A stretch of DNA of 64,000 nucleotides from Cellulosimicrobium cellulans (lineage in GTDB: Bacteria > Actinomycetota > Actinomycetes > Actinomycetales > Cellulomonadaceae), in assembly GCF_016921195.1 (NCBI RefSeq), contig NZ_JAFGYF010000001.1:186001-250000 (forward strand). The letters are read 5' to 3'. Below are positions 44,525 through 60,425 of the stretch, piece after piece. Position numbers and translations under genes: made by a program. The notes under the pieces were generated by a model, which had not been told where the DNA came from, searched no databases, and saw only the letters and a program-made list of their open reading frames with translations. Each line of letters begins with the position of its first letter. Position 1 is the stretch's first letter.

Positions 44525-46351
44525 ATGGGCGCGCAGCCCGACGACCTGACCCTCGTGGACCTCGTCCGCGAGCACGTGCGCGAGCGCCCGGACCACGCGG
44601 CGGTGGTCGTCGTGCCGGAGGTGGGCGAGCGGCGCACGCTCACGTACGCGGAGCTCGACGCGCAGGCGGCGGCGCTCGCGGCAGGTCTCGCGGACCGCCA
44701 CGCACCGGGCGACCGGGCCCTGGTCCTCTACTCGGCGACCGCGTCGTTCGTCGTCGGGCTCCTGGCCTGCTTCTACGCGCGCCTGATCCCCGTCCCGTCC
44801 CCGCTCCCGGGCGGGCAGGCGTACCAGCGCGAGCGCGTGCGCGGCATGCTCGCCGACTGCGACGCGGCCGTCGTGCTCGTCGACCCGACCGCAGTGACCG
44901 AGACCGCGGAGTGGGCCCAGCCGCTGCGGCGCGCCGACGGCGGACGCGTCGTCGTGACCGTGGTCGACGGCACCACGGACGGCCCGGCCCGGCGCGGTCG
45001 ACCGGGTCCGCAGGACGTCGCGTTCCTCCAGTACACCTCCGGGTCCACGAGCAACCCGAAGGGCGTCGTCGTGACGCACGCGAACGTCCTGCACCACCAC
45101 GACGCCTTCTCGACGACCCTCGGCCTCGTCCCGGAGGACGTCTTCTGCAGCTGGCTGCCGGGGTACCACGACTTCGGGCTCGTCGGGATGCTCCTGGTCC
45201 CCCTCGGCCTCGGCGCGACGGCGGTGATCGTCCCCTCCACGGCGTTCCTCAAGCGACCCGTCCGCTGGCTCTCGGCGATCACCGAGACCGGGGCGACCGT
45301 CACGGCGTCGCCGAACTTCGGCTACGACCAGTGCGCGCGGCGCGTGCGCGACGACCAGCTCGCCGAGCTCGACCTGTCCCGCCTGCGCTGGGCCCTCGGT
45401 GGTGCCGAGCCGGTGGACCCCGCCGTCCTGGACGCCTTCACGCGCCGGTTCGAGCCCGTCGGATTCCGCGGGTCGGCCCACGGCCCCGGGTACGGCCTCG
45501 CGGAGGCGACGCTCACGGCCACGTACCCGGACCGCCGGCTCCCGCTCGTCATCACGGCGGACGAGGCGGCGCTCGCCGACGGCCGGCTGGTCGTCCTCGA
45601 GGAGGCGTCGTTCCTCACGGCGCTCCCGGACGCCGCGGCGCAGGGCCGGGGCAGCGTCCCGGGCGCGCGCCTCGTGTGCTGCGGCCTGCCGAGCGGGGTG
45701 GAGCTGCGCCTCGTGGACGACCAGGGCGCCGAGGTGCCCGACGGCGCGGTCGGGGAGGTCTGGCTGCGCGGCGGCACCGTCGCGGCCGGGTACTGGGGCG
45801 ACGCCGCAGCGCACGCGACGGCCGAGACGTTCGGTGCCGTCGCGGCCGACGGCACGGGCCCGTGGCTGCGCACCGGCGACCTGGGGGCGCTGCACGGCGG
45901 CCAGCTCGTCGTGACGGGGCGGATCAAGGAGCTCCTCATCGTCGCGGGGCGCAACCTGTACCCCTACGACCTCGAACGCGAGCTGCGCCGTCTGCACCCG
46001 GGGGCCGAGGGCCGGCCGGGCGCGGTCTTCGAGGTGGAGGGCCTGCCGGGCACGTTGTGCGCGGTCCAGGAGTTCCGGCCCACGCCGGGGGCTCGCCTCG
46101 ACGGCGCGAGCGCCGAGGAGGAGCTGGACGCGGTGGTGCGCCGGATGGCCGCGCACCTGGCCTCCGTCTCGGGCGCCGCGGTGCACGACGTCGTCCTCGT
46201 GCGCCCCGGCCAGGTGCCGCGGACCACGAGCGGCAAGATCCAGCGCGGCCGGGCGCGCGACCTGCACGGCCGGGGCGACCTCGCCGAGCTCCACTCCCTG
46301 CGCGCGTCCCGGGACGGCGCGCGCGCCGAGCTCGCAGGGACCCGCTCATGA
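44525..46351 (+). CDS. Fatty-acyl-AMP ligase (FAAL)
   Basis: A 608-residue ANL-superfamily enzyme of FAAL length. Motifs: FLQYTSGSTSNPKGVVVTH (P-loop), LPGYHDFGLVG, the APGYGLAEAT-like GPGYGLAEATLT, WLRTGDLGAL, GRIKELLIVAGRNLYP and the A10 lysine in TTSGKIQRGRA. FAALs activate a fatty acid as acyl-AMP and pass it to a carrier protein instead of CoA; the carrier gene follows at once, overlapping by four bases (ATGA). First gene of the operon, with GGAGGG before ATG 44525. The chain length it accepts cannot be read from the sequence. Confidence 0.9.
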   Translation: MGAQPDDLTLVDLVREHVRERPDHAAVVVVPEVGERRTLTYAELDAQAAALAAGLADRHAPGDRALVLYSATASFVVGLLACFYARLIPVPSPLPGGQAYQRERVRGMLADCDAAVVLVDPTAVTETAEWAQPLRRADGGRVVVTVVDGTTDGPARRGRPGPQDVAFLQYTSGSTSNPKGVVVTHANVLHHHDAFSTTLGLVPEDVFCSWLPGYHDFGLVGMLLVPLGLGATAVIVPSTAFLKRPVRWLSAITETGATVTASPNFGYDQCARRVRDDQLAELDLSRLRWALGGAEPVDPAVLDAFTRRFEPVGFRGSAHGPGYGLAEATLTATYPDRRLPLVITADEAALADGRLVVLEEASFLTALPDAAAQGRGSVPGARLVCCGLPSGVELRLVDDQGAEVPDGAVGEVWLRGGTVAAGYWGDAAAHATAETFGAVAADGTGPWLRTGDLGALHGGQLVVTGRIKELLIVAGRNLYPYDLERELRRLHPGAEGRPGAVFEVEGLPGTLCAVQEFRPTPGARLDGASAEEELDAVVRRMAAHLASVSGAAVHDVVLVRPGQVPRTTSGKIQRGRARDLHGRGDLAELHSLRASRDGARAELAGTRS

Positions 46352-46614
46352 CCGCACCGCTGCCCGACGCGCTCGACGACCTCGTGCTCCGCCACGTCGC
46401 CGCCGCCCTGGGGGTCACGCCCGCGGACGTCGATCCTGCGGGCGACCTCGCCGGCCTCGGCCTCGGCTCGGTCCAGGTGCTGGCCCTGCTCGGGGACCTG
46501 GAGGACGCGCTCGGCGTCGACCTGGACCCGGAGGCCGTCGTCGACAACCCGACGCCCCGGGCGCTCGCGGCGCACCTGCGCAGCGTGGTCGACGTCCCCG
46601 GGACGGCGGCATGA
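46348..46614 (+). CDS. Acyl carrier protein, first
   Basis: An 88-residue carrier protein with the phosphopantetheine serine in AGLGLGSVQVLALL and the usual acidic helix II. It overlaps both neighbours by ATGA junctions, between the FAAL and KAS III genes. It is therefore the likely acceptor of the FAAL-activated acyl chain and substrate of the KAS III. It would need the phosphopantetheinyl transferase encoded at 58324. Confidence 0.88.
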   Translation: MTAPLPDALDDLVLRHVAAALGVTPADVDPAGDLAGLGLGSVQVLALLGDLEDALGVDLDPEAVVDNPTPRALAAHLRSVVDVPGTAA

Positions 46615-47591
46615 CGACCCTCGTCGACGTCGGCGCGCACGTCCCCGCGACGCGCGTGCCGATCCGCGACCTCGCGGACGAGCTAAGCCTCGACCACCTC
46701 GAGCTCGGCGTGTTCGAGCGCTTCTTCGGGCTGCGCGAGGTGTGCACGGCGCCGGACGCGAGCCTCAGCGACCTGCTCGTCGCCGCGGCGCGCGCCGTGC
46801 CCGGCCTCGCCGGCAACGAGCACCGCGTCCGGTACGTGCTGGGCGCGCGGACCATCGCGACCGTCGCCCCGGTCGGGGTCAACCCCCTGCACGACGCCGC
46901 GGACCGCCTCGGGCTCGACCACGCGGTCGTGTGGACCCTCACCCAGCACGCGTGCGCGTCCGCGCTGCTCGCCGTCGACGTCGCGGGGCGCCTGCTCGCG
47001 GCCGACGGCGATGCCGACGCGCTCGCGCTCGTCCTCACGGGGGAGAAGGCGTTCAGCCCCGGCTCTCGCCTCATCGAGGGCACGACGATCATGGGCGAGG
47101 GCACGGCGGCGGTCCTCGTCGCGGCGGGCGGGTCCGCCGACGACCCCGCCCCCGCGAGCGGGAGCACCGTGCTCTCCTACGCGACGCGCACCCTGGGCGA
47201 GTACCACCAGGTCCCGCTCCCGGAGGACCTCGCGGGGCCGTTCGGCGTCGCCTACACCGAGGTGCTCGCCGAGGTCGTGCTCGAGGCGGTCGAGCGCGCG
47301 GAGCTGACGCTCGACGACCTCGCCCTCGTCCTGCCGCACAACGTCAACCGCGTGTCGTGGCGGCGTCTGTGCTCGCGCCTCGGGCTGCCGATCGCGCGCG
47401 TCCGGCTCGACGACGTGCCCGTGACGGGCCACTGCTTCGGCGCCGACTCGTTCATCGGCTACGCCGCCGCACGCGCCGAGGGCCGGTTGCGCCCCGGCGA
47501 CCCGTTCCTCATGGTGGCCGTCGGCCTCGGGGCCACGTTCTCCGCCATGGTCCTGCGCTACGCGCCCCACGAGACGGAGGAGCCCGCATGA
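46611..47591 (+). CDS. 3-oxoacyl-ACP synthase III family protein, C-H-H active site
   Basis: A 326-residue thiolase-fold condensing enzyme. The nucleophile C115 lies in TQHACASALL and H243 in VLPHNVNR. The third residue of the FabH triad, normally Asn in 'GNTSAAS', aligns with H274 in VTGHCFGADSFIGY. It is thus KAS III-like but with an atypical triad, as in condensing or acyltransferase enzymes of specialised pathways. It may condense, transfer or release the acyl chain on the first carrier protein. Coupled to both neighbours by ATGA overlaps. Confidence 0.85.
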   Translation: MTTLVDVGAHVPATRVPIRDLADELSLDHLELGVFERFFGLREVCTAPDASLSDLLVAAARAVPGLAGNEHRVRYVLGARTIATVAPVGVNPLHDAADRLGLDHAVVWTLTQHACASALLAVDVAGRLLAADGDADALALVLTGEKAFSPGSRLIEGTTIMGEGTAAVLVAAGGSADDPAPASGSTVLSYATRTLGEYHQVPLPEDLAGPFGVAYTEVLAEVVLEAVERAELTLDDLALVLPHNVNRVSWRRLCSRLGLPIARVRLDDVPVTGHCFGADSFIGYAAARAEGRLRPGDPFLMVAVGLGATFSAMVLRYAPHETEEPA

Positions 47592-49060
47592 CGGTCGAGC
47601 AGGTGGCGGAGGCCGCCCCGGACGCCGCGTCGGGGGCCCGTCGCGAGCCGTTCCTCGCGCGGACCAGGCGCGCGCTCGCGGGCGCCCCCGACGCACCGCT
47701 GGTGCTCCTCGGGAACTTCGAGGTCGAGGACGCGTGGGCGGTCGGCGAGGTCGGCCTGCCCTCGGTCGGCGGCGCGTCGGCGACGGCCGCGCTCGTCAAC
47801 CGCATGGACGAGCTCGCGCTGCTCCTCGCCGGCCCGGACGACCACGTCGTGCTCAAGGCCGAGCCCGACCCGGACCACCTCGCCCACCTGGACGCGCTCG
47901 GCGTCGGGCTCCCGACCGTGCACGTCGCGGAGTCGAGCGACCCGCTGCGCACCGTGACGCTCGACGCGCTCGACTCGCCCGCGCTGCTCGCGCGCCTGCG
48001 CGACCTGGGGGCGGACGGCGTGCGCCTCCTCGCGCACGGGACGTCGCCGGCCGAGGAGGACCTCGCGACAGCGACGGGCCTGCGCTCGCTGCTCCCCGAC
48101 GCCGCGACGACCAAGGCCGTCAACAGCAAGGTCTACAGCCGCGGGCTGTGCGACGAGCTCGGGATCGAGCAGGCGCGCGGGTGGGCGTGCCGGACCGTCG
48201 AGGACTTCGAGCGCGCGTGCGCCGAGGCGGCGAGGCTCGTCGCGGACGGCGCGACCGTGGGCGTCAAGGACGCGTACGGCGTCTCCGGCAAGGGGATCCT
48301 CGTCGTGGACGACCCGCGACGGCTCGACCAGCTCGTGCGGATGGTCACGCGCCGGGCCGCGCGATCGGGCGACGATCGCCTCGCGGTCGTGGTCGAGGTC
48401 TGGGCGGACAAGGCGACCGACCTCAACTACCACTTCACCGTCGCGCAGGACGGCTCGGTCGCGTTCGACTTCGTCAAGGAGGCGATCACCGAGGGCGGGG
48501 TCCACAAGGGTCACCGCATCCCGTCGCGACTGCCCGCGGAGCAGGTCGAGGCGCTGGCCGAGCTGTCGGGCCGGCTCGGCGCGCGCCTCGCCGCCGACGG
48601 CTTCCACGGCCTCGTCGGGGTCGACGCGCTCGTGCGCACGGACGGCTCGCTGCTGCCGGTCCTGGAGATCAACGCGCGCAGCAACATGTCCACGTACACC
48701 GTGCCGTTGCAGGAGCGGTTCCAGCCGGAGGGCTGGGTCGCGCTCGCGCGGCAGTACCCGCTCGTGCTCGACGCCCCGCAGTCGTTCGCGGCGCTCCACG
48801 ACGTCCTCGGCGACCTGCTCCCCGGCGCGGCCGGGGAGGCGGGGCTCGTCGTCCAGGGGACGGGCACGGTCAACGCGGGCGCGTCGTCCGCGTCGCCGGG
48901 CGACACGTTCGCGGGCCGGCTCCACGGCCTCCTCGTCGCGCCCGACGAGGACGCGCTCACCCGCCTCGACCGTGCCGTGACGGAGCGGCTGACGGAACGG
49001 CTCGCCCGGCGCACGGCAGCGCGGGCCGCCGCCACCCCGACCGAAGGAGACCCCCGATGA
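47588..49060 (+). CDS. ATP-grasp ligase (BtrJ-like role proposed)
   Basis: A 490-residue ATP-grasp enzyme. The N-terminal 160 residues look like a pre-ATP-grasp domain (VLLGNFEVEDAWAVGEVGLP). The ATP-grasp core has TVGVKDAYGVSGKGILVV, VVVEVWADKATDLNYHF and the metal-binding LPVLEINARSNMST near residue 360. Such enzymes join a carboxylate to an amine or thiol through an acyl phosphate. In butirosin biosynthesis an ATP-grasp ligase (BtrJ) loads L-glutamate onto a carrier protein; the next two genes here, a PLP decarboxylase and a carrier protein, complete that trio. The substrate is an inference. ATGA overlaps on both sides. Confidence 0.85.
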   Translation: MTVEQVAEAAPDAASGARREPFLARTRRALAGAPDAPLVLLGNFEVEDAWAVGEVGLPSVGGASATAALVNRMDELALLLAGPDDHVVLKAEPDPDHLAHLDALGVGLPTVHVAESSDPLRTVTLDALDSPALLARLRDLGADGVRLLAHGTSPAEEDLATATGLRSLLPDAATTKAVNSKVYSRGLCDELGIEQARGWACRTVEDFERACAEAARLVADGATVGVKDAYGVSGKGILVVDDPRRLDQLVRMVTRRAARSGDDRLAVVVEVWADKATDLNYHFTVAQDGSVAFDFVKEAITEGGVHKGHRIPSRLPAEQVEALAELSGRLGARLAADGFHGLVGVDALVRTDGSLLPVLEINARSNMSTYTVPLQERFQPEGWVALARQYPLVLDAPQSFAALHDVLGDLLPGAAGEAGLVVQGTGTVNAGASSASPGDTFAGRLHGLLVAPDEDALTRLDRAVTERLTERLARRTAARAAATPTEGDPR

Positions 49061-50376
49061 CCACGACGCCGACCCGGCCGACGACGCCTGGGAGCGTGGA
49101 CCTCGCCGCGGTCGCGGAGGAGTTCGGCACGCCCGTGTACGTCTACGACGGCGACGTGCTGGCCGCGAACTACCGCGCGCTGCGCGAGCGGCTGCACCCC
49201 GCGCTGGGGATCTTCTACTCGCTCAAGGCGAACCCCAACGTCAGCGTCTGCGGGCTGCTGCACTCGCTCGGTGCGAACGCCGAGGTCTCCTCGCTGACCG
49301 AGCTGCGCACGGCGCTCGCGGCGGGCGTCGCGCCCCAGGACATCCTCTTCCTCGGGCCGGGCAAGAGCCGGGAGGAGCTCGTCGCGTGCCTCAACTCCGG
49401 AGTGCGGGCGATCATCGTCGAGTCGCTGCCGGAGCTCACGCTGGTGGACGAGCTCGCGCGCGCGACCGGGCGTCCCGCGCGCGCCGTGCTGCGCGTCAAC
49501 CCGTCGTTCTCCGTCAAGGGCTCCGGGCTGACGATGGGCGGCAAGCCGCGCCAGTTCGGCATCGACGAGCAGCAGCTCCTCGACGCGCCGGACCTGTGCG
49601 CCGGGCTGACGACGGCCCGCGTGGTCGGGGTCCAGGTGTACATGGGGACGCGCATCCTCGACGAGGGCACGATCGTCGAGAACACGACGCGCATCTTCGA
49701 GCTCGCGGAGCGCCTCGCGGAGCGACTCCGCTTCCCGCTCGAGCTCGTCGACGTCGGCGGCGGCCTGGGCGTCGCGTACTTCGAGCGCGAGCGTGACCTC
49801 GACGTCGAGGTCCTCACCGCGGCGCTCAACCCGGTGGTCGAGGCGTTCGTGCAACGGCACCCCGCGACGGACCTCGTCATGGAGCTCGGGCGCTACCTCG
49901 TGGCGCTGTGCGGCACGTACGTCGCGCGCGTGCGCTACGTCAAGGAGTCGATGGGCGAGCGGTTCGCCGTCGCCGACGGCGGCACGAACCACCACATGGC
50001 CGCGGTCGGCATCGGGTCGTTCGTCAAGCGCAACTTCCCGATGCGCAAGATCGGCCCCGCGTCCGGTGCCGAGGACGTGCCGTGGAACGTCACGGGCCCC
50101 CTCTGCACGCCCAACGACACGATCGGCAAGGGCGTCGCGCTCCCCGCGGACCTCGCGGCGGGCGACCTCGTCGCCGTCGACCGCTCCGGCGCGTACGGCG
50201 CGACGGCGTCGCCCGTGCACTTCCTCAGCCACGGCTACCCCGCGGAGGTGCTGACGCTCGGAGACGAGTCGTTCCTCGTCCGGCACGCGGACACGCCCGA
50301 CGACCTCCTGTCCCGCCAGGTCTTCCACGACCTCGGCGCGCGCGTCGCCCCGGCCGAGGCCGTCGTCGCACCCTGA
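49057..50376 (+). CDS. Type III PLP-dependent decarboxylase (DAP/ornithine decarboxylase fold, BtrK-like)
   Basis: A 439-residue fold type III decarboxylase. The PLP lysine is K57 in FYSLKANPNVS; the phosphate-binding glycines are in VDVGGGLGVAYF; ELGRYLVALCGTY matches the 'EPGR' motif; and GPLCTPNDTIGKG is the Cys loop that reaches the partner active site in dimers. The His of the 'HIGS' motif is replaced (VQVYMGTR), as expected when the substrate is not free DAP. Family members include BtrK, which decarboxylates glutamyl-carrier protein to GABA-carrier protein. Its position between the ATP-grasp enzyme and a carrier protein supports a carrier-bound substrate; not proven. Confidence 0.87.
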   Translation: MTTTPTRPTTPGSVDLAAVAEEFGTPVYVYDGDVLAANYRALRERLHPALGIFYSLKANPNVSVCGLLHSLGANAEVSSLTELRTALAAGVAPQDILFLGPGKSREELVACLNSGVRAIIVESLPELTLVDELARATGRPARAVLRVNPSFSVKGSGLTMGGKPRQFGIDEQQLLDAPDLCAGLTTARVVGVQVYMGTRILDEGTIVENTTRIFELAERLAERLRFPLELVDVGGGLGVAYFERERDLDVEVLTAALNPVVEAFVQRHPATDLVMELGRYLVALCGTYVARVRYVKESMGERFAVADGGTNHHMAAVGIGSFVKRNFPMRKIGPASGAEDVPWNVTGPLCTPNDTIGKGVALPADLAAGDLVAVDRSGAYGATASPVHFLSHGYPAEVLTLGDESFLVRHADTPDDLLSRQVFHDLGARVAPAEAVVAP

Positions 50377-50448
50377 CCCGCCCGGCCCGACCGACACCCA
50401 GCCGCCGCCCGCACCGCGGGCGCACGACACCCACCCGGAGGAACCATC

Positions 50449-50745
50449 GTGAGCATCGGCACCCCCACGAACACCGAGTCCCAGGAGGCCCTCGGCCGCG
50501 AGCGCGTCGTCGGCGCGGTCGTCGAGGCGCTGTCGAGCGTCCTCGGGCGCCCACTGCCCGACGTCACGGACGCGACCCGCCTGTTCGACGACCTCGACCT
50601 CGACTCCACGAGCGTCCTCGGCCTGCTCATGGCCCTCGAGGACTCGCTCGACATGGAGGTCGACCCGGAGTCGCTCGAGCAGCACCACCTCGAGAGCGTG
50701 GGCTCGCTGACGGACTTCGTCGTCGAGCACTCGACCCGGAACTGA
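50449..50745 (+). CDS. Acyl carrier protein, second (BtrI-like role proposed)
   Basis: A 98-residue carrier protein with the modified serine in FDDLDLDSTSVLGLL and a conserved acidic helix. GTG 50449 has a GGAGG site about nine bases upstream. This is the only junction in the operon with a real gap (72 bases) before it, so it may be translated independently at a higher level, as carrier proteins often are. It differs clearly from the carrier protein at 46348, suggesting separate acyl and aminoacyl carriers. Confidence 0.88.
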   Translation: MSIGTPTNTESQEALGRERVVGAVVEALSSVLGRPLPDVTDATRLFDDLDLDSTSVLGLLMALEDSLDMEVDPESLEQHHLESVGSLTDFVVEHSTRN

Positions 50746-50746
50746 C

Positions 50747-51703
50747 GTGGCGCTCGGGGGCAGCACCGCGCGAGCTTCCACAGCGGCGTCCACGTCGGGG
50801 CCGGGAGGCGCCGCCCTGCGCGTGCGGGGCGTGGTCGACGTCCCGGTCGACGACCTCGTCCCCGTCGGGGACGGGACGCGTCGGTCGGTCGCCGAGGACC
50901 TGCGGTACGTGTACGGGGAGGACCAGCCGACCGACTGGCTGGAGACCGGCCCGGGCCGGGACTACCCGACGATGATCCGCGCGGCGCGCGCCGCGCTCGC
51001 GGAGGGCGGCCTGCTCGACGACGTGCGCCTCGTCGTCCTCGTCGTCACGACCCCCGACCTCCAGCACGAGCGCCTGCTCGGCGGGTTCGTCGCCGATCTG
51101 TTCGACGACCGTCCGTACACCTTCTGCGTGACGGAGCAGGGGCTCGCCGGACCGTTCACCGCGCTCCGGCTCGCGCGCGAGGAGCTCACGCACGGCGGCC
51201 CGCGGGGTGCCGGACTCGGGGGAGACGCCCTCGTCCTCGTCCTGGAGCAGTGCACGCTGCCCCCGACGGTGACGCGCGTCCCCACGCGCGACCGCGTCGT
51301 CGCGCTCGTCGTCGGGCACGACGGCGCAGGGCGGCCGGTCGAGGCGCTGTCGGTCGCGCGTGCACCTCGCGGTCCCCGTCCGGCCGCCGCGGCGCACGAC
51401 GCCGCCCCGGAGCGGGAGCGCGAGGCGACGCCCGACGCCCGGCGCGTCGTCCTCGGCGTCGACGTCGACCCGGGCGAGGTGCCCGACCTCGACGGCGTCG
51501 TGCTGCACGCCGACCCGGGTGCGGCAGCGACGGGAGTCTGGGAGGTCCTCGCCGCGTGCGACGACGTCCCGGACGCGCCCGTCGTCCTGCACGAGCGGTG
51601 CCTCGAGCTGGGCTACCGCTGCACGCTCGCCCTCGGTCCGCGGTCCGTCGCGGTGGTCCCACCGCAGGTCGACGACCTGTCCCGAGAGGCGGTGCTCGCA
51701 TGA
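50747..51703 (+). CDS. KAS-like protein lacking the catalytic cysteine
   Basis: A 318-residue protein whose N-terminal half follows the thiolase fold: MIRAARAALAEGGLLDDVRL, VVLVVTTPDLQ, then CVTEQGLAGPFTALRLA. The last segment aligns with TQHACASALLAVDVA of the KAS III at 46611, placing Leu133 where the nucleophilic Cys should be. The C-terminal half lacks recognisable His and Asn motifs. It could be a chain-length-factor-like or structural partner of the KAS III, or an acyl-binding scaffold. GTG 50747 begins one base after the previous gene. The family assignment is my own alignment by eye and only moderately sure. Confidence 0.6.
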   Translation: MALGGSTARASTAASTSGPGGAALRVRGVVDVPVDDLVPVGDGTRRSVAEDLRYVYGEDQPTDWLETGPGRDYPTMIRAARAALAEGGLLDDVRLVVLVVTTPDLQHERLLGGFVADLFDDRPYTFCVTEQGLAGPFTALRLAREELTHGGPRGAGLGGDALVLVLEQCTLPPTVTRVPTRDRVVALVVGHDGAGRPVEALSVARAPRGPRPAAAAHDAAPEREREATPDARRVVLGVDVDPGEVPDLDGVVLHADPGAAATGVWEVLAACDDVPDAPVVLHERCLELGYRCTLALGPRSVAVVPPQVDDLSREAVLA

Positions 51704-52512: not shown

Positions 52513-53666
52513 CCACGGTCGACCTCGTCGCGCTGCGCGACCACCTGAGGCCCGTCGGCGCGGCGCTGCGCGAGCACGCCCTCGCGATCGACGCCGATCC
52601 CGCGGCGCTCCAGGTGCTCCTGGACTCCGGCGCCCTGCCGTACCGGCAGCTCGGCGGGTTCCCGCCGGGCTACCTCGACGACCCGCTGCGCGTGCGGGGC
52701 GTGCCGGTGCACGTGCGCACGTGCGCGGAGCGCGTCGTCGTCGCGGAGGCGCTCGCGTGGGGCGACGCGTCCGTCGTCGTCGGGGCGCCCGGGCCATCCA
52801 TGTCCGGGGTCGTCGTCGACGACCTCGCGGACGAGGAGCAGCGCGACCGCTTCTACCGTCGCGTGGCGCAGCCGGGCACGTGGACGTTCTTCGGGCTCAC
52901 CGAGCCCGACCACGGCTCGGACGCCGCGGCGCTCGAGACGGCCGTCGTCGAGGCCGACGGCGCTCCCGTGCTGCGGGGACACAAGAAGTACGTGGGCAAC
53001 GTCGCGCGCGCGAGCCTCGGCGTCGTGTTCGCGCGGCACCGCCCGGGCCCACTGGGCGTGGGGGTCCATCTCGTCGACACCGAGCGGCCCGGCTTCGACG
53101 CCGCGCCGCTCGTGACGACCGGCATGCGCGCGGTGCAGCTCGGCGAGGTACGGCTGGACGACGTGCCGCTGCTGGACCAGGACACGCTCGGGCGGCACCT
53201 GTCGCCCTCGCGCCGCGGCCTGCTCGGGGCCGTGCGCACGTTCAACCGGTTGCGCCCGGTCGTGGCGTCGCTCGCCGTGGGTCTCACCCAGGCGGCGCTC
53301 GACTACGTGCGCGCCGAGCGGTCGTCGTTCACCGCCGACGAGCGCTGGCGCCTGGAGACCTTCGACGACCGGCTCCACGCCGCGCGGGCCCTCGTGCTCC
53401 AGGCCGCGCGCGCCGCCGACGCGGACCCGGCGGACGGGACGCTGCCGGCGGCGGCCAAGGCCACCGCGCTCGACCTCGCGGAGGAGGTCACGCACGCCGT
53501 GCCCCCGCTGCTCGGCCCCGGCGCGCGGTGGGAGCACCCGTACCTCGACAAGCTGGTCCGCGACGTGCCCGGCCTGGAGATGATGGAGGGCACGCGGACG
53601 GTCCAGCGGCTCACCCTCGCGCAGGGCTGGCTGCAGGGCAGGGCACGGCATGCCGAGCTCGTCTAG
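52509..53666 (+). CDS. Acyl-CoA (or acyl-ACP) dehydrogenase
   Basis: A 385-residue flavoenzyme with the acyl-CoA dehydrogenase plan: N-terminal helical domain, a beta domain with WTFFGLTEPDHGSDAAAL and LRGHKKYVGNVA, and a C-terminal helical domain ending EMMEGTRTVQRLTLAQ. It introduces an alpha,beta double bond. In a cluster with two carrier proteins the acyl group is probably carrier-bound, as for proline-carrier dehydrogenases in pyrrole pathways. I could not confirm the catalytic base. Its end overlaps the MATE gene by 17 bases. Confidence 0.85.
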   Translation: MTTVDLVALRDHLRPVGAALREHALAIDADPAALQVLLDSGALPYRQLGGFPPGYLDDPLRVRGVPVHVRTCAERVVVAEALAWGDASVVVGAPGPSMSGVVVDDLADEEQRDRFYRRVAQPGTWTFFGLTEPDHGSDAAALETAVVEADGAPVLRGHKKYVGNVARASLGVVFARHRPGPLGVGVHLVDTERPGFDAAPLVTTGMRAVQLGEVRLDDVPLLDQDTLGRHLSPSRRGLLGAVRTFNRLRPVVASLAVGLTQAALDYVRAERSSFTADERWRLETFDDRLHAARALVLQAARAADADPADGTLPAAAKATALDLAEEVTHAVPPLLGPGARWEHPYLDKLVRDVPGLEMMEGTRTVQRLTLAQGWLQGRARHAELV

Positions 53667-55464
53667 GGAGGCCGACGCGACCCCGGTCGCGACCGCCGCG
53701 TCGCGGCCGGAGGTCCTGCCGCCTGTGCCCCCGCCCGGCGTGGCGCCGACCGTCGGGGCCCTGCGCCGCCGCGTCGTGCGCCTCGCCGCCCCGATCTGCG
53801 CCGCGCTCGTCGTGGGGGCTCTCGCGCAGCTCGTCGTCGCGGCGCTGCTGGGGCACATGGGCGACGACGCGCTCTACGTCCGGTCGCTCTTCATCCCCGT
53901 GACGTTCCTCGTGCTCGCGGTCCAGGAGGGCCTCGACGTCTCGACGCAGGTCGGCTTCGCGCGCCTGCACGGGTCGCGGGGTCGGGCGGCGGAGGACGAC
54001 GCCCCGGACCCCGCTCAGGCCGGCGCCGGGGACGGCGCGGGCGACGGCGGCGGCGCGGTCGTCGTCCCGACGTCGGCCACCGCGGCGCTGCTCGGGCGGT
54101 TCGTGGCCGCGGGCGCGGCCGTGCTCGGCGGGGTCGCCCTGCTGGTGGTCCTGGCCGCGCCGGCGCTCGCCGACGTGCTGTCCGTGCCCGCGCCGCTCGT
54201 CGCCGAGTTCGTCGCGTTCGCGCGCTGGACCGTGGTCGCGAGCGTGCTGTCCGTCCCGACGGCGGTCGCCGCCGCCGCGCTGCGGGGGTGGGCGCGCACG
54301 GGCGCGTCGGCGACCGTGGCGCTGCTCGTCGCGGGGCTCCAGGTGCTCGCCGTGTGGCTCGTCGGGCTCGTGGGCGGGTTCGGCGTGCTCGCGGTCCCGG
54401 TCGCGATCACGGGCTCCACGCTCGCGGGCGCGACCGTCGCCTGGGCGCTCCTCGTGCGCGCCCGCCTGCTCCCGAGGCCCGGGCACGTCCCGGGTCTGCG
54501 ACGCCTGCTCGCGCTGCGCCACCGCCCCGTGCCGCGGCGGGTCGCCGCGGCGTGGCGACGGGCGCTCCGCGCGCTGCCCGCCGGGTCGTGGACGACGCCG
54601 ACCCCGCCACCGCCTGCCACGACGACGCCGCCGTCGGCCGCGGCGCCGTCCGGCCCGACCCGTGACACGCGACCCGCCGAGTCGACCGCCCTGACCCCGT
54701 CGGCCGCGGAACCGTCGACGTCGGACGTGCCCCCCGCCCGTGCGACCGCCGAGCGGATCGACGTGCGGGTCGACGTGCGGGTCGACGTGCGCGGGCTGCT
54801 CCTCGGCGTCGGCCTGCCGGTCGGTCTGTCGTACCTCCTGCTCACCGTGACGAACCTCGTCATGGTGTGGGTCCTCGGGCCGTCGGGAACGGACGTCGTC
54901 GCGGGGTTCGGCGGCGCCGCGACGGTCCAGACGCTCGTGATCGTGCCGGCGATCGGGCTCGCCGCGGCGGTGAGCATCGTCATGAACCAGCAGTGGGGAG
55001 CGGGCGAGCTCGGACTCCTGCCGAGCACGCTGCGCGCGGGCACGGTCGTCGTCGCGGGCGTGTACGTGGTGGTGGGGGCGCTCGTCCTCCTGACCGCGCC
55101 GCTCGTCGCGGGGCAGCTCTCCGCGGACCCGGACATCGCTGTCCAGGCGACGCTCTACCTGCGCGTGGTCGGGCCGTCGTACGCGGGCGTCGGGCTCGTG
55201 CTCTTCCTCCTGACGCTGCTCGAGCAGCTCGGGTACGGGCGCGTCGCCGTGACGCTCAACGTCCTCTACCACGCCGTCTCGCTCGGCGTCGGCGGCGTCC
55301 TCGCGCGCGCGGGCGGCGGTCCCACCGCGCTGTACACGACGATCGCCGTGACGAACGTCGTCGGGCTCGTCGTCATGCTCCCCGTCGCGGTGCGCCTCGT
55401 CCGGCGGCGGGCGAGGGCTGCGAGGGTCGAGCCGGCCGGGTCCGCCGTGGAGGTCGCGCCGTGA
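53650..55464 (+). CDS. MATE-family efflux protein with long internal linker
   Basis: A 604-residue transporter of the MATE fold: two homologous halves of hydrophobic helices, from VVRLAAPICAALVVGALAQL to ATVAWALLVRARLL and from LLLGVGLPVGLSYLLLTVTN to VGLVVMLPVAVRLV. A linker of roughly 120 residues joins them, Thr/Pro/Ala-rich, ending in a threefold 12-bp duplication that encodes VDVR repeats (54758-54793). A second low-complexity loop occurs near residue 115. The position inside the operon suggests export of the product or a lipid intermediate. ATG 53650 lies inside the previous gene. Confidence 0.82.
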   Translation: MPSSSREADATPVATAASRPEVLPPVPPPGVAPTVGALRRRVVRLAAPICAALVVGALAQLVVAALLGHMGDDALYVRSLFIPVTFLVLAVQEGLDVSTQVGFARLHGSRGRAAEDDAPDPAQAGAGDGAGDGGGAVVVPTSATAALLGRFVAAGAAVLGGVALLVVLAAPALADVLSVPAPLVAEFVAFARWTVVASVLSVPTAVAAAALRGWARTGASATVALLVAGLQVLAVWLVGLVGGFGVLAVPVAITGSTLAGATVAWALLVRARLLPRPGHVPGLRRLLALRHRPVPRRVAAAWRRALRALPAGSWTTPTPPPPATTTPPSAAAPSGPTRDTRPAESTALTPSAAEPSTSDVPPARATAERIDVRVDVRVDVRGLLLGVGLPVGLSYLLLTVTNLVMVWVLGPSGTDVVAGFGGAATVQTLVIVPAIGLAAAVSIVMNQQWGAGELGLLPSTLRAGTVVVAGVYVVVGALVLLTAPLVAGQLSADPDIAVQATLYLRVVGPSYAGVGLVLFLLTLLEQLGYGRVAVTLNVLYHAVSLGVGGVLARAGGGPTALYTTIAVTNVVGLVVMLPVAVRLVRRRARAARVEPAGSAVEVAP

Positions 55465-57545
55465 CCGCGCGGGGGACGACGCCGCCGGTCCCGGACGTGC
55501 CGGCCCGCACCACCCCGGTCCGCGCCACCCCGATCCCCACCGCCTCGGTCCGCGACGTGCCGGGAGCGGGCGTGGTCCCGCGTGCGGCGGCCGGTCCGTG
55601 CTCGGTCGCCTCGGAGCCGGTGCTCAGCGTCGTCGTCATGCACCACCCGGCGCGAGGCGACGTCTCCGAGCTGCTCCGCGCGTGCGCGCCGCTCGACGTG
55701 CGGGTCGTCGAGGACCCCGAGCCCGACGGCCCGCCCAGCCCGCTGCGCACCGCGAAGCGGGCCTGGGCCGCCGTCGCGCCGGGCGCGACGCACCACCTCG
55801 TGCTGCAGGACGACGTGACCCCGGTCCCGGGGTTCGCCGAGCTCGTCCTGCGCGCCGTGCGCGCCCGGGACCGGCACGCGGTCGCGCTCTACTCGAACTG
55901 GAACAGCCCGCGCAACGCCTACCTCGTGCGCGCCGCGGCGGTCGCGGGGCAGGCGTGGGCGCCGCTCGGGCACGACGAGTGGGTGCCCACGCTCGGCCTC
56001 GTCCTCCCCGCGGAGGGCGCGCTGCGCCTCGCCGCGCACCTCGCGGCCCTGCCCGACGACGAGCGCGACGACGACGAGGCCGTCGTGACGTTCTGCGCGC
56101 GCGAGGGATACCCCGTCGTCGCGACGCTGCCGCACCTGCTGGAGCACGGCGACGGCCCGAGCCTCGCGGGCAACGACGCGCACGGGGCCCGGCACGCGAC
56201 CGTCCCCGCGGGCGACGCCGTCGACCCGGACGCGTGGGACCGCCCGGGCCTCGACCGCGAGCCGTCGCGCTCGCCGGCGACACCCCGGCCGGTCGCGGTC
56301 ACGCTCGAACGCTCGCGCTGCTCGCTGCGCGTGCTCCGCCCGGGCGCGGGGGAGCCGCTCGAGCACCCGTTCGGCTGGGGCTGGGACGCGTGGTCGTGGT
56401 GGCTCGGCATCGACCCGGCGACGGTCGCGCACGACGTGTCGCTGCTCGTCGCGGGCGCCTCCCCGGAGCTCGGCCGCGTCTCGCGCGACGCGCTGATCGA
56501 GCTCGGCGCGGCGTGCTGGCTGCTCGGGTACGACGTCTCCCGCACGGACTGGCCTGGGCCCGTCGCCCCCGACGCCCCGGCGCACCGGGCCGCCGCGGTC
56601 CGGACGTGGGTGCTCTCCGGCCTCCTCCCCGCCGACCGACCCGAGGACCGTGTGGACGAACTGGTCGCGTTCGCCCTGGACGCACTGGACACCGGCGCCA
56701 CGTCGACCGGCACCCCGCCGAACCCGGGGTTACGGCCGGGTTCGGCGCCGGATTCGCCCACAACCCCGGGTTCGGCAGCCGTCGTCGGGCCTCGGGCGAG
56801 CGACGGGGCGGCGGACACCGGTGTCGATCGTGCCGCGCTCGCCGCCGTACGGCGTCTCGCGGAGCGTGACGCCGCGGTCGTGTGCCGGGCGGCGGGTTCC
56901 GCGGTTCCGGTGCGGGTCGTCGTGCACGACTGCCCGGCGTGCGGCGCGCGCGCCGCGGACGCGGTGCGGCGGCTCGCCGCGCAGGTCGGGCTCGACGGGG
57001 CCGCCGAGCACCGGGTCGCGGGACCCGACGACGCCGAGCACCGGGTCGCGGGACCCGACGACGCCGCGGCCGGGGACGAGACGGCCTCACGCGCGTCCGA
57101 CCGTCCCTCGGCACCCGACGCGTCCGCGGTGCCCGCGGTGCCTGAGGTGCGCGACCAGCACGGCGGCCGGGCCGTCGTCGAAATCCTGGCGTGCGAGCGC
57201 GTCGAGACACGCGGGCTCCTCGGCGTCGATCCCGGCGGTCGTTACGTCTCGCGCGGGCTGTGGGTGTCGCGCAGGACGGTCGCCGCACGACCCCGCGCGA
57301 CGACGGGCGAGCCGCACCGGGCGGCGACGGACCCCGCCGACGCTCGGATCCTCACCACGGCGGACGTCCTGGTCGCGCTCGCCGACGCCGCACACGTGCT
57401 GCCGGTCGTCACGCGCGCGGACGTCGACGCGATCGGCCGACCGAGCCCGGCCGCGCTGGGCCTGCAGCACGCGGCCGGACCCGTGCAGCGGTACGCGGAC
57501 CTCTACGCGGAGTCCCGGCTCGCGCACGCGGAGACGCTGCTGTGA
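55461..57545 (+). CDS. Glycosyltransferase-like multi-domain protein, unknown role
   Basis: A 694-residue protein that I cannot fully assign. Residues 50-250 look like a GT-A-type fold: LSVVVMHHPARGDVSELL, HHLVLQDDVTPVPGFAELV (a DxD-like site) and LPHLLEHGDGPSLAGND near its end. The middle part (about 285-390) contains a Trp-rich GWGWDAWSWWLGIDP segment; the C-terminal third has HDCPACGARAADAVRRLA, a CxxC pair, and ends with a helical region. No membrane segments. It may transfer a sugar or other group to the product. A 30-bp tandem duplication (57003-57062) encodes AEHRVAGPDD twice. GTG start overlaps the MATE stop. Confidence 0.55.
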   Translation: MTARGTTPPVPDVPARTTPVRATPIPTASVRDVPGAGVVPRAAAGPCSVASEPVLSVVVMHHPARGDVSELLRACAPLDVRVVEDPEPDGPPSPLRTAKRAWAAVAPGATHHLVLQDDVTPVPGFAELVLRAVRARDRHAVALYSNWNSPRNAYLVRAAAVAGQAWAPLGHDEWVPTLGLVLPAEGALRLAAHLAALPDDERDDDEAVVTFCAREGYPVVATLPHLLEHGDGPSLAGNDAHGARHATVPAGDAVDPDAWDRPGLDREPSRSPATPRPVAVTLERSRCSLRVLRPGAGEPLEHPFGWGWDAWSWWLGIDPATVAHDVSLLVAGASPELGRVSRDALIELGAACWLLGYDVSRTDWPGPVAPDAPAHRAAAVRTWVLSGLLPADRPEDRVDELVAFALDALDTGATSTGTPPNPGLRPGSAPDSPTTPGSAAVVGPRASDGAADTGVDRAALAAVRRLAERDAAVVCRAAGSAVPVRVVVHDCPACGARAADAVRRLAAQVGLDGAAEHRVAGPDDAEHRVAGPDDAAAGDETASRASDRPSAPDASAVPAVPEVRDQHGGRAVVEILACERVETRGLLGVDPGGRYVSRGLWVSRRTVAARPRATTGEPHRAATDPADARILTTADVLVALADAAHVLPVVTRADVDAIGRPSPAALGLQHAAGPVQRYADLYAESRLAHAETLL
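57003..57062 (+). repeat. Perfect 30-bp tandem duplication
   Basis: Two identical 30-bp units (57003-57032 and 57033-57062), in frame, each encoding AEHRVAGPDD within the linker of the glycosyltransferase-like protein. Identity at every base implies a very recent duplication or slippage-prone site. Confidence 0.9.
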
Positions 57546-58327
57546 CCGCGACCCCGACCGGTCCGTCGGCGCGCACCGCGACCGGCGCGTGGGCGTGGCG
57601 CGGTGCAGCCCTGCTGCTCGACCTCGACGGGACGCTCGTCGACTCCTCGGCCGCGATCGAGCGGCACACGCTCACGTGGGCGGCGCGGCTCGGGCTCGAC
57701 GGCGATGCGGTGGTCACGGCGTCGCACGGCCGCCGCGACGTCGAGGTGGTCCGCCTCGTCGCGCCGGGCGCCGACGTCGCGCGCGAGGTCGAGTGGCTGC
57801 ACCGCATCTCGTGCGACGACACCGAGGGCGTCGTGGCCGTGCCGGGCGCGGCGGAGCTCCTGGACGGCCTGGACCCGCGGGCCTGGACGGTCGTGACGTC
57901 GGCGGCGCGCGAGGTCGCGCTCGCGCGGCTGACGGCGGCCGGCCTGCCGGTGCCGACGCGGTTCGTGTGCGCGGAGGACGTGGCGCGCGGCAAGCCCGAC
58001 CCCGAGGGGTTCCTCGCGGGGGCGCGGCTGCTCGGGGTCGACCCGCGCCGCTGCCTCGTCCTGGAGGACTCCGCCGCCGGTGTCGCGGCGGGGCGGGGCG
58101 CGGCGGCGACCGTGCTCTCCGTCGGCGCCGCCGACGTCCCGGGTGCGCACCACGGGGTCGCGGACCTGCGACCCGTGGCCCCGCGCGCCGTCGACGGCGA
58201 GGTCGAGGTCGTCGTGCCGGCGCGCCACGCGGAGCGGTTCGACCGACCCTCCGAGCGTCCGTCCGAGCGCCCGTCCGCCGGGCCGTTCGAAGGACTCGGC
58301 GACGGCCTGCCGGAGTTCGTCGCATGA
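57542..58327 (+). CDS. HAD-superfamily phosphatase (subfamily IA, sugar-phosphatase-like)
   Basis: A 261-residue hydrolase with HAD motifs: LLLDLDGTLVDSS (nucleophile D27 and D29), VVTSAAREVALARL (motif II), GKPDPEGFLAG (motif III lysine) and LVLEDSAAGV (motif IV acids). The cap helices follow motif I as in subfamily IA phosphatases of the phosphoglycolate/sugar-phosphate type. It would dephosphorylate a small phosphate ester, perhaps a precursor of the cluster product. The C-terminal tail has a SERPSERPS repeat. GTGA overlap with the previous gene. Confidence 0.85.
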   Translation: MTATPTGPSARTATGAWAWRGAALLLDLDGTLVDSSAAIERHTLTWAARLGLDGDAVVTASHGRRDVEVVRLVAPGADVAREVEWLHRISCDDTEGVVAVPGAAELLDGLDPRAWTVVTSAAREVALARLTAAGLPVPTRFVCAEDVARGKPDPEGFLAGARLLGVDPRRCLVLEDSAAGVAAGRGAAATVLSVGAADVPGAHHGVADLRPVAPRAVDGEVEVVVPARHAERFDRPSERPSERPSAGPFEGLGDGLPEFVA

Positions 58328-59094
58328 GCGCGGCCGATCCGGTGCCCGAGGTCGAGCTGTGGTTCGTCGACACGACCCCGCTGCTCGCCGACCAGGACGC
58401 GAGGGTCATGACGGGCCCTTCTCCGGTCGTGAGGTCGTGCACGACGCGGGGTGATGACGGGTTCGGCGCCGAGGTGCTGGGCGCGGTCGAGCGCGAGCGG
58501 GCCGGGCGCCTCGCCTCGCCCGCCGACGCCGGGCGGTACGTGCGCGCCCACGTCGCCGTCCGCGAGCTCCTCGCCGCGCGCACGGGGATGCGGCCTGCGG
58601 ACGTGTGCTGGGAGGTGGGGCCGCACGGGAAGCCGGGTCCCGTCGTCGGGCAGCGGTGGAACCTCAGCCGCAGCGGCGACCACGCGCTCGTCGCGCTCGC
58701 CGAGACGGACGTGGGCGTCGACGTGCAGGTGCGCGACCCGCGCGTGGACGTCCGCCGCCTCGCCGCGCGGTTCCTCGCCACGGGGGACCCGCGGGTGGAC
58801 TCGGACGGGAACCTGTGGCGGCGGTTCGCGCGGCTGGAGGCGTGCGCCAAGGCGGTCGGCGGGCGGCTGCTCGACGTGCTCGGGCTCGACGTCGGGGTCC
58901 CCGGGAGGGTCCGGGCTGAGGACGGCCCGTGGCACGGGCAGGAGTGGTGGGTGAGCGACGTGGCGGCCCCGGCGGGTGCCGTCGCGGCGTGCGCGACGCC
59001 GGGTCCGCGACGGCACGTGCACCGCACCCGGGTCTGGGGTGCGGAGCGGCCGGCTCTCGCCGTCGCGCGGGGCGGTGCGGGAGAAGAGCGATGA
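58324..59094 (+). CDS. 4'-phosphopantetheinyl transferase, second
   Basis: A 256-residue Sfp/AcpT-type transferase. It has WEVGPHGKPGPVVG and NLSRSGDHALVALAE before the metal-binding VGVDVQVRDPRVD, and RFARLEACAKAVGGRL, the counterpart of 'W..KEA..K..G' with Ala replacing Lys-Glu order slightly (L-E-A-C-A-K). It should activate the two carrier proteins of this operon. ATGA overlaps at both ends. Confidence 0.83.
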   Translation: MSAADPVPEVELWFVDTTPLLADQDARVMTGPSPVVRSCTTRGDDGFGAEVLGAVERERAGRLASPADAGRYVRAHVAVRELLAARTGMRPADVCWEVGPHGKPGPVVGQRWNLSRSGDHALVALAETDVGVDVQVRDPRVDVRRLAARFLATGDPRVDSDGNLWRRFARLEACAKAVGGRLLDVLGLDVGVPGRVRAEDGPWHGQEWWVSDVAAPAGAVAACATPGPRRHVHRTRVWGAERPALAVARGGAGEER

Positions 59095-60425
59095 GGGTCG
59101 TGCACCGCCTCGAGGTCGGCGGGCGCGCGGGCGAGGCGCCCGCGACGTGGGGCCAGACGGCGATCCGGCGCGCGCTCGCCGCGCTGGAGCCCCTGGACCA
59201 CCAGTTCAACCTCGTGTGGGGCGGGCCGCTCGACGCGCCCGTGCCGGCGGAGGCCGCGACCGCCGTCGTGCGCGCGCTCGTCGAGCGGCACGACTCGCTG
59301 CGGACGCGGATCCACCTGCGCGGCGACGGCTTCGTCCAGGAGCTGTGCGGCGCCGGGACGGTCGAGGTCGTCGAGGAGCGGGTCACCGACGTCGGCGAGG
59401 TCGCCGCGTGCGGCGCCCGGCTCCGCGACGAGCTCTGGGGCCGCGCGTTCGACTACGCGACAGAGCTGCCCGTGCGGGCCGGTCTCGTGACGGTGGACGG
59501 CGCGGTGCACCACACGACGCTCGTCGTCGCGCACACCGCGCTCGACGGCTGGGGGCTGCCCGTCCTCGACGCCGACCTCACGGCCCTCGCCGCGGGCACC
59601 GCGCTGCCCGACCGTGGGGCGTGGACGCCGCTCGAGGAGGCGGCCTGGCAGGCGTCGGACGAGGGACGACGGCACGACGCCGCCGCGCGCGCCCGCACCC
59701 TGCGCACTATGCACGCGGCCCCGGCGCAGGTGTTCACGCCGCGCCCGCCCGACGGCCCCGGCCGTCCGCGGTACCGGCAGACGGTCCTGCGCTCGCGGCG
59801 CCTGGGGCCCGCGGCCGAGCGGGTGGCCGCGCGCTGGCGCACGAGCACGTCGGGCGTGCTGCTCGCGGCATCGTGCCGTGCGCTCGCCCTCGCCGCGGGC
59901 CGTGACGACCTCGCGCTCCAGGTCATGGTGAGCAACCGCTTCCGCCGCGAGCTCGCCGAGGCCGTCGTCACGACGGCCATGGAGGGCCTGGTGCACGTGG
60001 ACGGCCTGGGCGCGCCGTTCGACGAGGTGGGCACGCGGGTCTGGCGCGCGGCGATGACGGCGTACCGGTCGGCGTACTACGACAAGGACCGGCTCCAGGC
60101 GGAGGCCGCGGCCGACCCGTCGGCCGCCCACGACGGCACGTGCTGGTACAACGACCGTCGCGGGACCGGTCCCGACCGGACGCTGCGCGCCCGCCCCACG
60201 CGGTCGCGCCGGCTCGCGCGCGCCGACGCCTCCGACGAGCAGGGGGGCGTGACGCTCACGCTGCACCTCGTCGACGCTCCGGGCGGCGGCATCGACGTCG
60301 TCCTCACCGCCGACACGACGCGCCTGGACGACGCGACGGCGGAGCAGGTCGTGCGGGACGTCGAGCGCTGCGTGCTGGACGCGTCGCGCGCGGGGAGTCC
60401 TCGCGGGCCGGTCACGCGCCGGTAG
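59091..60425 (+). CDS. Stand-alone condensation-domain-like acyltransferase
   Basis: A 444-residue protein of the condensation/WES/PapA superfamily. The C2-like motif RHDSLRTRI (66-74) and the active-site region VVAHTALDGWGL are present. In the latter, the canonical HHxxxDG reads A147-H148-x-x-x-D152-G153, so the catalytic second His is kept but the first is Ala. A latch-like region with DRRGTG and TLTLHLVDAPGGGIDVVLT follows. Such proteins make amide or ester bonds to a carrier-bound acyl group, a suitable last step for this pathway. It is the last gene of the coupled run; its stop overlaps that of the convergent thioesterase by 14 bases. Confidence 0.78.
   Translation: MRVVHRLEVGGRAGEAPATWGQTAIRRALAALEPLDHQFNLVWGGPLDAPVPAEAATAVVRALVERHDSLRTRIHLRGDGFVQELCGAGTVEVVEERVTDVGEVAACGARLRDELWGRAFDYATELPVRAGLVTVDGAVHHTTLVVAHTALDGWGLPVLDADLTALAAGTALPDRGAWTPLEEAAWQASDEGRRHDAAARARTLRTMHAAPAQVFTPRPPDGPGRPRYRQTVLRSRRLGPAAERVAARWRTSTSGVLLAASCRALALAAGRDDLALQVMVSNRFRRELAEAVVTTAMEGLVHVDGLGAPFDEVGTRVWRAAMTAYRSAYYDKDRLQAEAAADPSAAHDGTCWYNDRRGTGPDRTLRARPTRSRRLARADASDEQGGVTLTLHLVDAPGGGIDVVLTADTTRLDDATAEQVVRDVERCVLDASRAGSPRGPVTRR

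Follow-up and report, generated by a model that had tools for sequence, protein, structure and literature searches.

A conserved fourteen-gene operon of Cellulosimicrobium cellulans that probably directs synthesis of an N-acyl-dehydro-beta-alanyl lipid

Background

What could be made by an operon that combines a fatty acyl-AMP ligase (FAAL), two carrier proteins, an ATP-grasp ligase, a pyridoxal phosphate (PLP)-dependent decarboxylase, a pair of acyl-CoA dehydrogenases (ACADs) and a condensation (C) enzyme? The question is raised by a block of 14 genes at positions 44525-60425 of a 64,000-nucleotide stretch of the Cellulosimicrobium cellulans genome (assembly GCF_016921195.1, contig NZ_JAFGYF010000001.1, positions 186,001 to 250,000), hereafter the window, by which we mean the whole stretch analysed. 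Here we show that the block is a real, genus-conserved operon, and we consider it probable that it makes an N-acyl-dehydro-beta-alanyl (enamide) lipid, the substrate, product, acceptor and every reaction being predicted from sequence. In the literature consulted, dehydro-beta-alanine (Dba) occurs in few products (the enamidonins, autucedines and olenamidonins, the bolagladins, and AFC-BC11), some of which are antibacterial or antifungal. The FAAL-type form of the locus, present without an adjoining non-ribosomal peptide synthetase (NRPS) in 12 of 17 genomes of the genus, could be tested as the origin of a new lipid class, with a C enzyme that would use an unusual acceptor. The combination of an ATP-grasp ligase with a ketoacyl synthase III (KAS III) partner that lacks the catalytic cysteine offers a search handle for new enamide lipids in actinobacteria.

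Results and discussion

Operon structure and conservation in the genus

On codon use, 14 genes are called between 44525 and 60425, all pointing the same way; ten of the 13 junctions are four-base overlaps and the remaining gaps measure 72, 76 and 58 bases. No terminator-like site was found within the block, and the single site upstream compares with 1.0 expected by chance. Scans against Pfam and NCBIfam recover a FAAL-like AMP ligase, two carriers, a KAS III, a Pre-ATP-grasp ligase, a BtrK/LysA-type decarboxylase, an ACAD pair, and MATE, HAD and Condensation proteins, with no modular NRPS or polyketide synthase (PKS) in the operon; g36 and g40 have no family match. The original prediction, made from the letters alone, had described 14 coupled co-directional genes of this anatomy, including an exporter and a 4'-phosphopantetheinyl transferase, and free of modular NRPS or PKS. 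Gene calling, gene order within the genus and family scans all agree with it, the transferase by way of sub-cut-off matches.

Of 16 other genomes of the genus, 11 have the ATP-grasp gene g33. The ACAD gene g38 occurs in the same set, which comes to 12 of 17 once the genome of the window is counted, or 12 of the 15 genomes with at least 90% completeness and at most 5% contamination. All 14 genes stand in order in ten of the 11 other same-genus loci fetched, though three of these (L022, L023 and L025) match g39 along no more than 37-46% of its length; in the eleventh (L024) a contig end falls within g36, and a different contig of that genome carries g38. A LuxR-type (GerE) regulator, g29 (43690..44292, minus strand, 200 aa, PF00196), is adjacent and divergent in all 11, while the flanks further out differ between loci. 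In C. terreum (L026 and L040, the same genome), g32-g33 form one open frame of 785 aa and g37-g38 one of 627 aa. The block is also carried, at 63-95% identity by gene, by a record named Sphaerisporangium cinnabarinum ATCC 31213 (L037, G010), which is probably a mislabelled genome.

A seven-gene cassette outside the genus

A scan of named genomes with an ATP-grasp alignment gave 38 loci, 31 of them outside seven Cellulosimicrobium-like records, and core genes in these 31 were identified with profiles built by iteration. The conserved unit is the seven genes g32-g38, around which the FAAL, carrier 1, the exporter, the phosphopantetheinyl transferase, the C enzyme and g40-g41 form a variable shell. 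Hosts include Streptomyces, Micromonospora, Actinomadura, Pseudoclavibacter and Protofrankia, with differing surroundings. Matches come from 8 of 394 genomes in the class at 1e-20, own genome included, and from 24 of 341 in one family at 1e-80, with surroundings read in 15.

Pairwise distances for g32, g33, g34 and g38 correlate at 0.85-0.95, with none of 1000 permutations as high for any of the six pairs, so the cassette genes appear to diverge together, shared host ancestry still being part of this test. The correlation set comprised 23 of the 38 loci plus the window; of the other 15, seven were left out by name (fused, split or rearranged) and the rest lacked one of the four genes by BLAST. 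On a quick ATP-grasp tree with midpoint root and only Shimodaira-Hasegawa-like approximate likelihood ratio test (SH-aLRT) support, a clade marked by glutamate mutase groups with Pseudoclavibacter, Streptacidiphilus and Cellulosimicrobium in one starred set of 21 rows. In Lentzea and Micromonospora (L061, L062) the cassette is accompanied by a transglutaminase-core gene and one more small gene, which Pfam identifies as a carrier in L061, and a radical-SAM match under cut-off adjoins the L061 cassette.

Proposed pathway

All 14 genes lie on the plus strand. The phosphopantetheinyl transferase-like g42 (58324..59094) would arm both carriers; its label comes from two NCBIfam matches under cut-off (HetI 1.8e-7, AcpT 6.6e-7), with no Pfam match at 0.01. 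FAAL-like g30 (44525..46351, 608 aa, PF00501), whose best NCBIfam matches are for the most part FAAL models, every one shown being under its curated cut-off, would activate a fatty acid and load the adjoining carrier 1, g31 (46348..46614, PF00550, 7e-15). The ATP-grasp ligase g33 (47588..49060, PF18604, 1e-17) would load L-aspartate through its side-chain carboxyl onto carrier 2, g35 (50449..50745, PF00550), the putative amino-acyl carrier, and the BtrK-type PLP decarboxylase g34 (49057..50376, PF02784 and PF00278) would then remove the alpha-carboxyl to give beta-alanyl-g35. The KAS III-type acyltransferase g32 (46611..47591, PF08541, with an alignment to KAS III in the PDB), possibly with its partner g36 (50822..51703), would transfer the acyl chain from g31 to the beta-alanyl amine. 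The small ACAD-like subunit g37 (51700..52512, PF00441, 7.7e-5) and the ACAD g38 (52509..53666, PF02770 and PF00441) would desaturate the N-acyl-beta-alanyl thioester. Finally, the stand-alone C enzyme g43 (59091..60425, PF00668, 1e-10) would hand the N-acyl-Dba group on to a soluble nucleophile instead of an NRPS carrier, with g40 (55461..57545, 694 aa) and the sugar-phosphatase-like HAD protein g41 (57542..58327, PF00702; NF008610 at 1.5e-47, under cut-off) modifying or supplying that partner. The MATE protein g39 (53725..55464, PF01554, 9e-21, an upstream ATG at 53650 being a possible alternative start) would export the product. The original prediction of a lipid amine or amide derived from a carrier-bound, decarboxylated amino acid thus survives as the best reading of the genes, modified in that the dehydrogenases probably turn the product into an enamide.

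Amino acid loading and decarboxylation

With its PF18604 domain and a family profile that matches PGM1 at 9.5e-15 and L-propargylglycine-L-glutamate ligase at 1.1e-10, g33 belongs with PGM1-type Pre-ATP-grasp ligases; as a single sequence it has no PDB match at 0.01. The best PDB match of g34 is BtrK (2j66/7ru7) at E 3e-95, followed by diaminopimelate decarboxylase at 2e-47, and we take BtrK to be a carrier-bound glutamate decarboxylase. In butirosin synthesis, an ATP-grasp ligase, a BtrK-type decarboxylase and a carrier act as a set (BtrI/BtrJ/BtrK), placing on an aminoglycoside a 4-aminobutyrate (GABA) side chain that a luciferase-type monooxygenase hydroxylates, with no KAS III, ACAD or FAAL known to be involved. 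The same three components stand together in our operon, and this arrangement, along with the closeness of g34 to BtrK, would suit a butirosin-like route in which g33 loads L-glutamate and g34 yields GABA-S-g35, the lipid being an N-acyl-4-aminobutyryl or 4-aminocrotonyl amide. No luciferase-like monooxygenase is among the operon's Pfam and NCBIfam matches, and the neighbours of related cassettes also speak against glutamate. In the clade of 11 loci near the window's ATP-grasp (L041-L049, L051, L070), a glutamate mutase E gene adjoins the cassette in nine, L051 being cut and L070 having none in range. The mutase points to (methyl)aspartate as substrate in those sister cassettes, and hence makes aspartate likely in our operon. 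MutE is absent from the window genome itself, so methylaspartate would not be needed, which fits a glutamate route as well. Since Dba is the unit in known products made with BtrK-like or aspartate-acting decarboxylases, the comparison again favours aspartate, and we regard the glutamate route as unlikely. Aspartate is the likely substrate of g33, favoured by this bracketing, which is not proof.

The eleven loci of the mutase clade have further neighbours. A class II lysyl-tRNA synthetase-like protein adjoins the cassette in all 11, and an NRPS resembling a condensation-adenylation-thiolation-thioesterase (C-A-T-TE) protein occurs with MbtH in eight, L047, L048 and L051 being short contigs without NRPS. 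Their product is possibly a methyl-enamide. Elsewhere, on Streptomyces and Rhizobium plasmids (L075, L076), BtrK-like decarboxylases adjoin a stand-alone adenylating enzyme, a carrier and ectoine synthase, another use of the carrier-decarboxylase pair.

Acylation by a KAS III-type enzyme

The atypical triad claimed for g32 is borne out: Cys115 and His243 are present, His274 stands where FabH has Asn, and these three residues together with Asp279 are invariant in 16 of 16 rows. A Cys-less partner had likewise been proposed, and in g36 the aligned catalytic column has no Cys in 18 of 18 rows. The AlphaFold2 (AF2) model of g36 has a pLDDT of 82.4, and each of the 50 Foldseek matches listed is to a KAS III-like or type III PKS-like protein, with E from 2.3e-7. 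Taken with a weak profile match, the predicted fold assigns g36 to the KAS III type, minus the catalytic cysteine. Because the FAAL and carrier 1 are optional and KAS III belongs to the core, g32 is likely the shared acyltransferase of the cassettes.

The roles could be divided otherwise. Loading, decarboxylation and FAAL acylation in AFC-BC11 synthesis have been reconstituted in vitro, with iterative loading; there N-acylation is the work of the FAAL and release that of a KAS III-like enzyme (PMC12186527). Transposed to our operon, in which a pair of KAS III-like proteins and a second carrier give scope for such roles, g30 would acylate the beta-alanyl carrier directly, g33 would iterate to a beta-alanine oligomer, g32 would release it to an amine, and g43 would have another task. 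KAS III is found, however, in cassettes without FAAL, where it cannot depend on one, and the olenamidonin paper proposes that a KAS III homologue ligates the lipid to an amino-acyl carrier (PMC11204786). We therefore judge this division of labour quite unlikely and retain N-acylation by g32.

Desaturation of the amino acid unit

g38 retains an EGT motif at a position that we take to be the catalytic Glu of ACADs. Since ACADs commonly act on acyl chains, and two further ACADs accompany 10 of the 13 FAAL-type relatives described below, g37-g38 might serve the fatty chain, leaving a lipid amine or amide without a desaturated amino acid part. Three observations make this very improbable. Genes like g38 accompany most cassettes that are not cut, FAAL or no FAAL. 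A Tritonibacter plasmid protein (L073, 11968-14406) joins a g34-like first half (49%, 1.6e-125) to a g38-like second half (29%, 9.6e-30), tying the ACAD to the amino acid unit. In the bolagladin system, deletion of bolQ yields dihydro-bolagladins, which likewise ties the ACAD to the amino acid unit (PMC7756342). Thus g37-g38 probably desaturate the amino acid unit to an enamide. Genes with KAS III and carrier annotations lie close to the Tritonibacter fusion.

FAAL-type loci and the condensation enzyme

Outside Cellulosimicrobium, 13 loci are of the FAAL type (L052, L053, L054, L057, L059, L071, L110/111, L112, L114, L117, L118, L119 and L123). L066 was left out for its 2,3-diaminopropionate (Dpr)-type gene pair and rearranged order, despite a FAAL, and L050 (Streptacidiphilus), marked as FAAL-type in the tree, because its AMP-binding protein is NRPS-like. 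Carrier 1 is present in 11 of the 13, MATE in 10, the two further ACADs in 10, the phosphopantetheinyl transferase in eight and the small C enzyme in seven, several stretches ending before the place of the last. No NRPS adenylation (A) domain was found at 1e-60 in the stretches read of any of the 13, and none lies beside the cassette in the window.

The HxxxD motif of g43 (AHTALDG) is kept in all eight rows that cover it. g43 is the sole Condensation match in the window genome, so its acceptor is probably not an NRPS carrier; the same search anywhere in seven cassette-host genomes, five of them FAAL-type, gave 5 to 51 matches each, so these hosts do possess NRPSs. Carrier matches in the window genome number four: g31, g35, one on contig 20 that is probably the fatty-acid-synthase acyl carrier protein, and one in g14 (22517-25606, plus strand), an adenylation-thiolation-reductase protein (AMP-binding, PP-binding, NAD_binding_4). 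As a partner for g43, g14 was rejected, being present in 2 of 17 same-genus genomes against 12 of 17 for g38, with no co-occurrence.

Clues to the acceptor come from the shell. The N-terminal part of g40 is 46-49% like single-domain proteins (L052|7, L053|18), and a low-confidence model (58.8) has GT-A and nucleotidyltransferase matches from 2.9e-4, which hint weakly at a GT-A-like domain; the C-terminal part has no assigned kind, a short stretch of it resembling the small gene L123|7 (4.8e-7). A fusion of two Actinomadura genes was considered and dropped, the C-terminal half matching L053|19 only at E 0.07. Genes like g40 occur in L052, L053, L112 and L123; that of L114 is cut, and L115, in which the search found no FAAL, gives a weak match. 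A class III aminotransferase, a Gfo/Idh/MocA oxidoreductase and an inositol-monophosphatase-family (IMPase) gene adjoin five of the 13 FAAL-type cassettes (L052, L053, L057, L112, L123) and none of 31 others (11 MutSE-type, 19 other and L050). A g40-like gene accompanies four of those five, and a polysaccharide deacetylase adjoins two, L112 and L123, as well as L050. One may speculate that in FAAL-type loci g43 forms an enamide glycolipid by attaching N-acyl-Dba to an amino sugar or aminocyclitol through its amine, with g40 and g41 serving the acceptor. We hold this to be doubtful, as the trio is absent from the stretches read of the other eight FAAL-type loci, and the 47 genes called in the window include none with likeness to the aminotransferase, MocA, IMPase or deacetylase.

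Points against the proposed pathway

Several observations weigh against the pathway as drawn. The nearest solved kin of g33 are amide ligases, and a role as aspartate-to-carrier loader, as proposed here, has no known precedent in its family; the choice of aspartate over glutamate is not proven. The model of g36 superposes loosely (TM about 0.5, root mean square deviation 7-14), and its profile likeness to the g32 family by hhalign is weak (probability 35, E 3.9e-4). Going by AFC-BC11, where N-acylation falls to the FAAL and release to a KAS III-like enzyme, the tasks of g30, g32 and g43 may be distributed differently. For g43 a soluble partner is only presumed, and the FAAL-type loci, six of which are in the ATP-grasp tree, do not form one clade with the window. 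Finally, the core of seven genes stands complete, in sequence and on a single strand in only 15 of the 31 non-Cellulosimicrobium loci. Five cassettes are cut by contig ends (L041, L047, L048, L051, L055) and 11 depart from the seven-gene order: no KAS III is called in L042, no g37 or g38 adjoins g36 in L050, g38 is on the other strand in L056, a MATE gene sits between carrier and KAS III in the altered order of L061 and L062, the decarboxylase is on the other strand in L063, L065, L067 and L069, L066 is rearranged and L068 has no g37.

Other features of the window

Two giant proteins of 2594 and 2391 aa are encoded on the plus strand at 13569-21353 and 26418-33593, the first with DUF7927, DUF7507 and DUF11 matches. 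ARAGORN calls a tRNA-Ala (CGC) at 40544-40629 on the plus strand, inside the open frame g24 (40456-41166), which itself scores well; either the tRNA or the frame is probably a false call.

Comparison with known systems

No description of this operon was found among the accessible papers listed, subscription papers being outside reach, and none of the matches listed links Cellulosimicrobium with a FAAL; a FAAL review (PMC11837247) gave no match to the terms sought. The original view that the operon fits no known class is nevertheless too strong, since the logic of loading, decarboxylation, N-acylation and desaturation has been published (PMC7756342, PMC12186527; referred to in PMC11204786). Three genetic hallmarks of a Dba starter pathway are present: a BtrK-type decarboxylase with a free-standing carrier, an ACAD tied to the cassette (g37-g38), and KAS III homologues of which at least one lacks the catalytic Cys (g32, and g36 by fold and a weak profile match). 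A VinN-type stand-alone A domain, as in the afc and bol systems, is absent, the operon's only AMP-binding protein being the FAAL, and so is a modular NRPS to receive the starter, as in the bol and autucedine systems, g43 alone matching Condensation in the genome.

An exporter match hinting at solanimycin (NF041801) was rejected, the accessible part of the relevant paper arguing for dehydro-alpha-alanine, not Dba. Bolagladins receive only a passing mention in PMC13291983.

The bolagladin (bol) pathway of Burkholderia gladioli shares with our operon the BtrK-like BolN, a free carrier, two Cys-less KAS III homologues, the ACAD BolQ and Dba. The proposed route there is loading of aspartate by BolO, decarboxylation by BolN, N-acylation by a KAS III homologue, the catalytic Cys being lost in BolM and BolP, and desaturation by BolQ; deletion of bolN abolishes the products. 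It differs in that the proposed loader BolO is of VinN type and that a tetramodular NRPS follows (PMC7756342). The term ATP-grasp does not appear in the main text of that paper.

AFC-BC11 synthesis (afc, Burkholderia cepacia complex) shares the FAAL, a free carrier, the PLP decarboxylase, KAS III-like proteins, dehydrogenases and the lack of a modular NRPS. Its product is N-acyl-(Dba)3-dehydrolysine, and its components include VinN-type AfcQ and, for decarboxylation, AfcP; among its three KAS III-like proteins is one that carries Thr in place of Cys. Unlike our operon, it has a VinN-type A domain in place of the ATP-grasp ligase, one carrier instead of two, a citrate-synthase/O-methyl chain end and, per the paper, no C domains, against one stand-alone C enzyme here (PMC12186527). 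BolN and AfcP are likened to g34 by description only, a search with g34 at E 1e-60 against a plasmid collection having returned no Burkholderia record.

The autucedines, olenamidonins and enamidonins of Streptomyces share a Dba unit, linked to the lipochain, and proposed KAS III lipid joining, but are cyclic Phe-Dpr-Dpr-Gly lipopeptides (PMC11204786), presumably assembled by an NRPS. The cassette host K. xanthocidica (L056/L082) has an NRPS that adjoins a PALP/ornithine-cyclodeaminase pair resembling Dpr synthesis; it was rejected as an enamidonin cluster, reading roughly C-A-T-C/E-C-A-T-C-T-TE and not as a plain four-module line. By analogy with these systems, our operon most likely encodes a pathway of the Dba kind in which an ATP-grasp loader replaces the VinN-type domain and the acceptor is probably not an NRPS.

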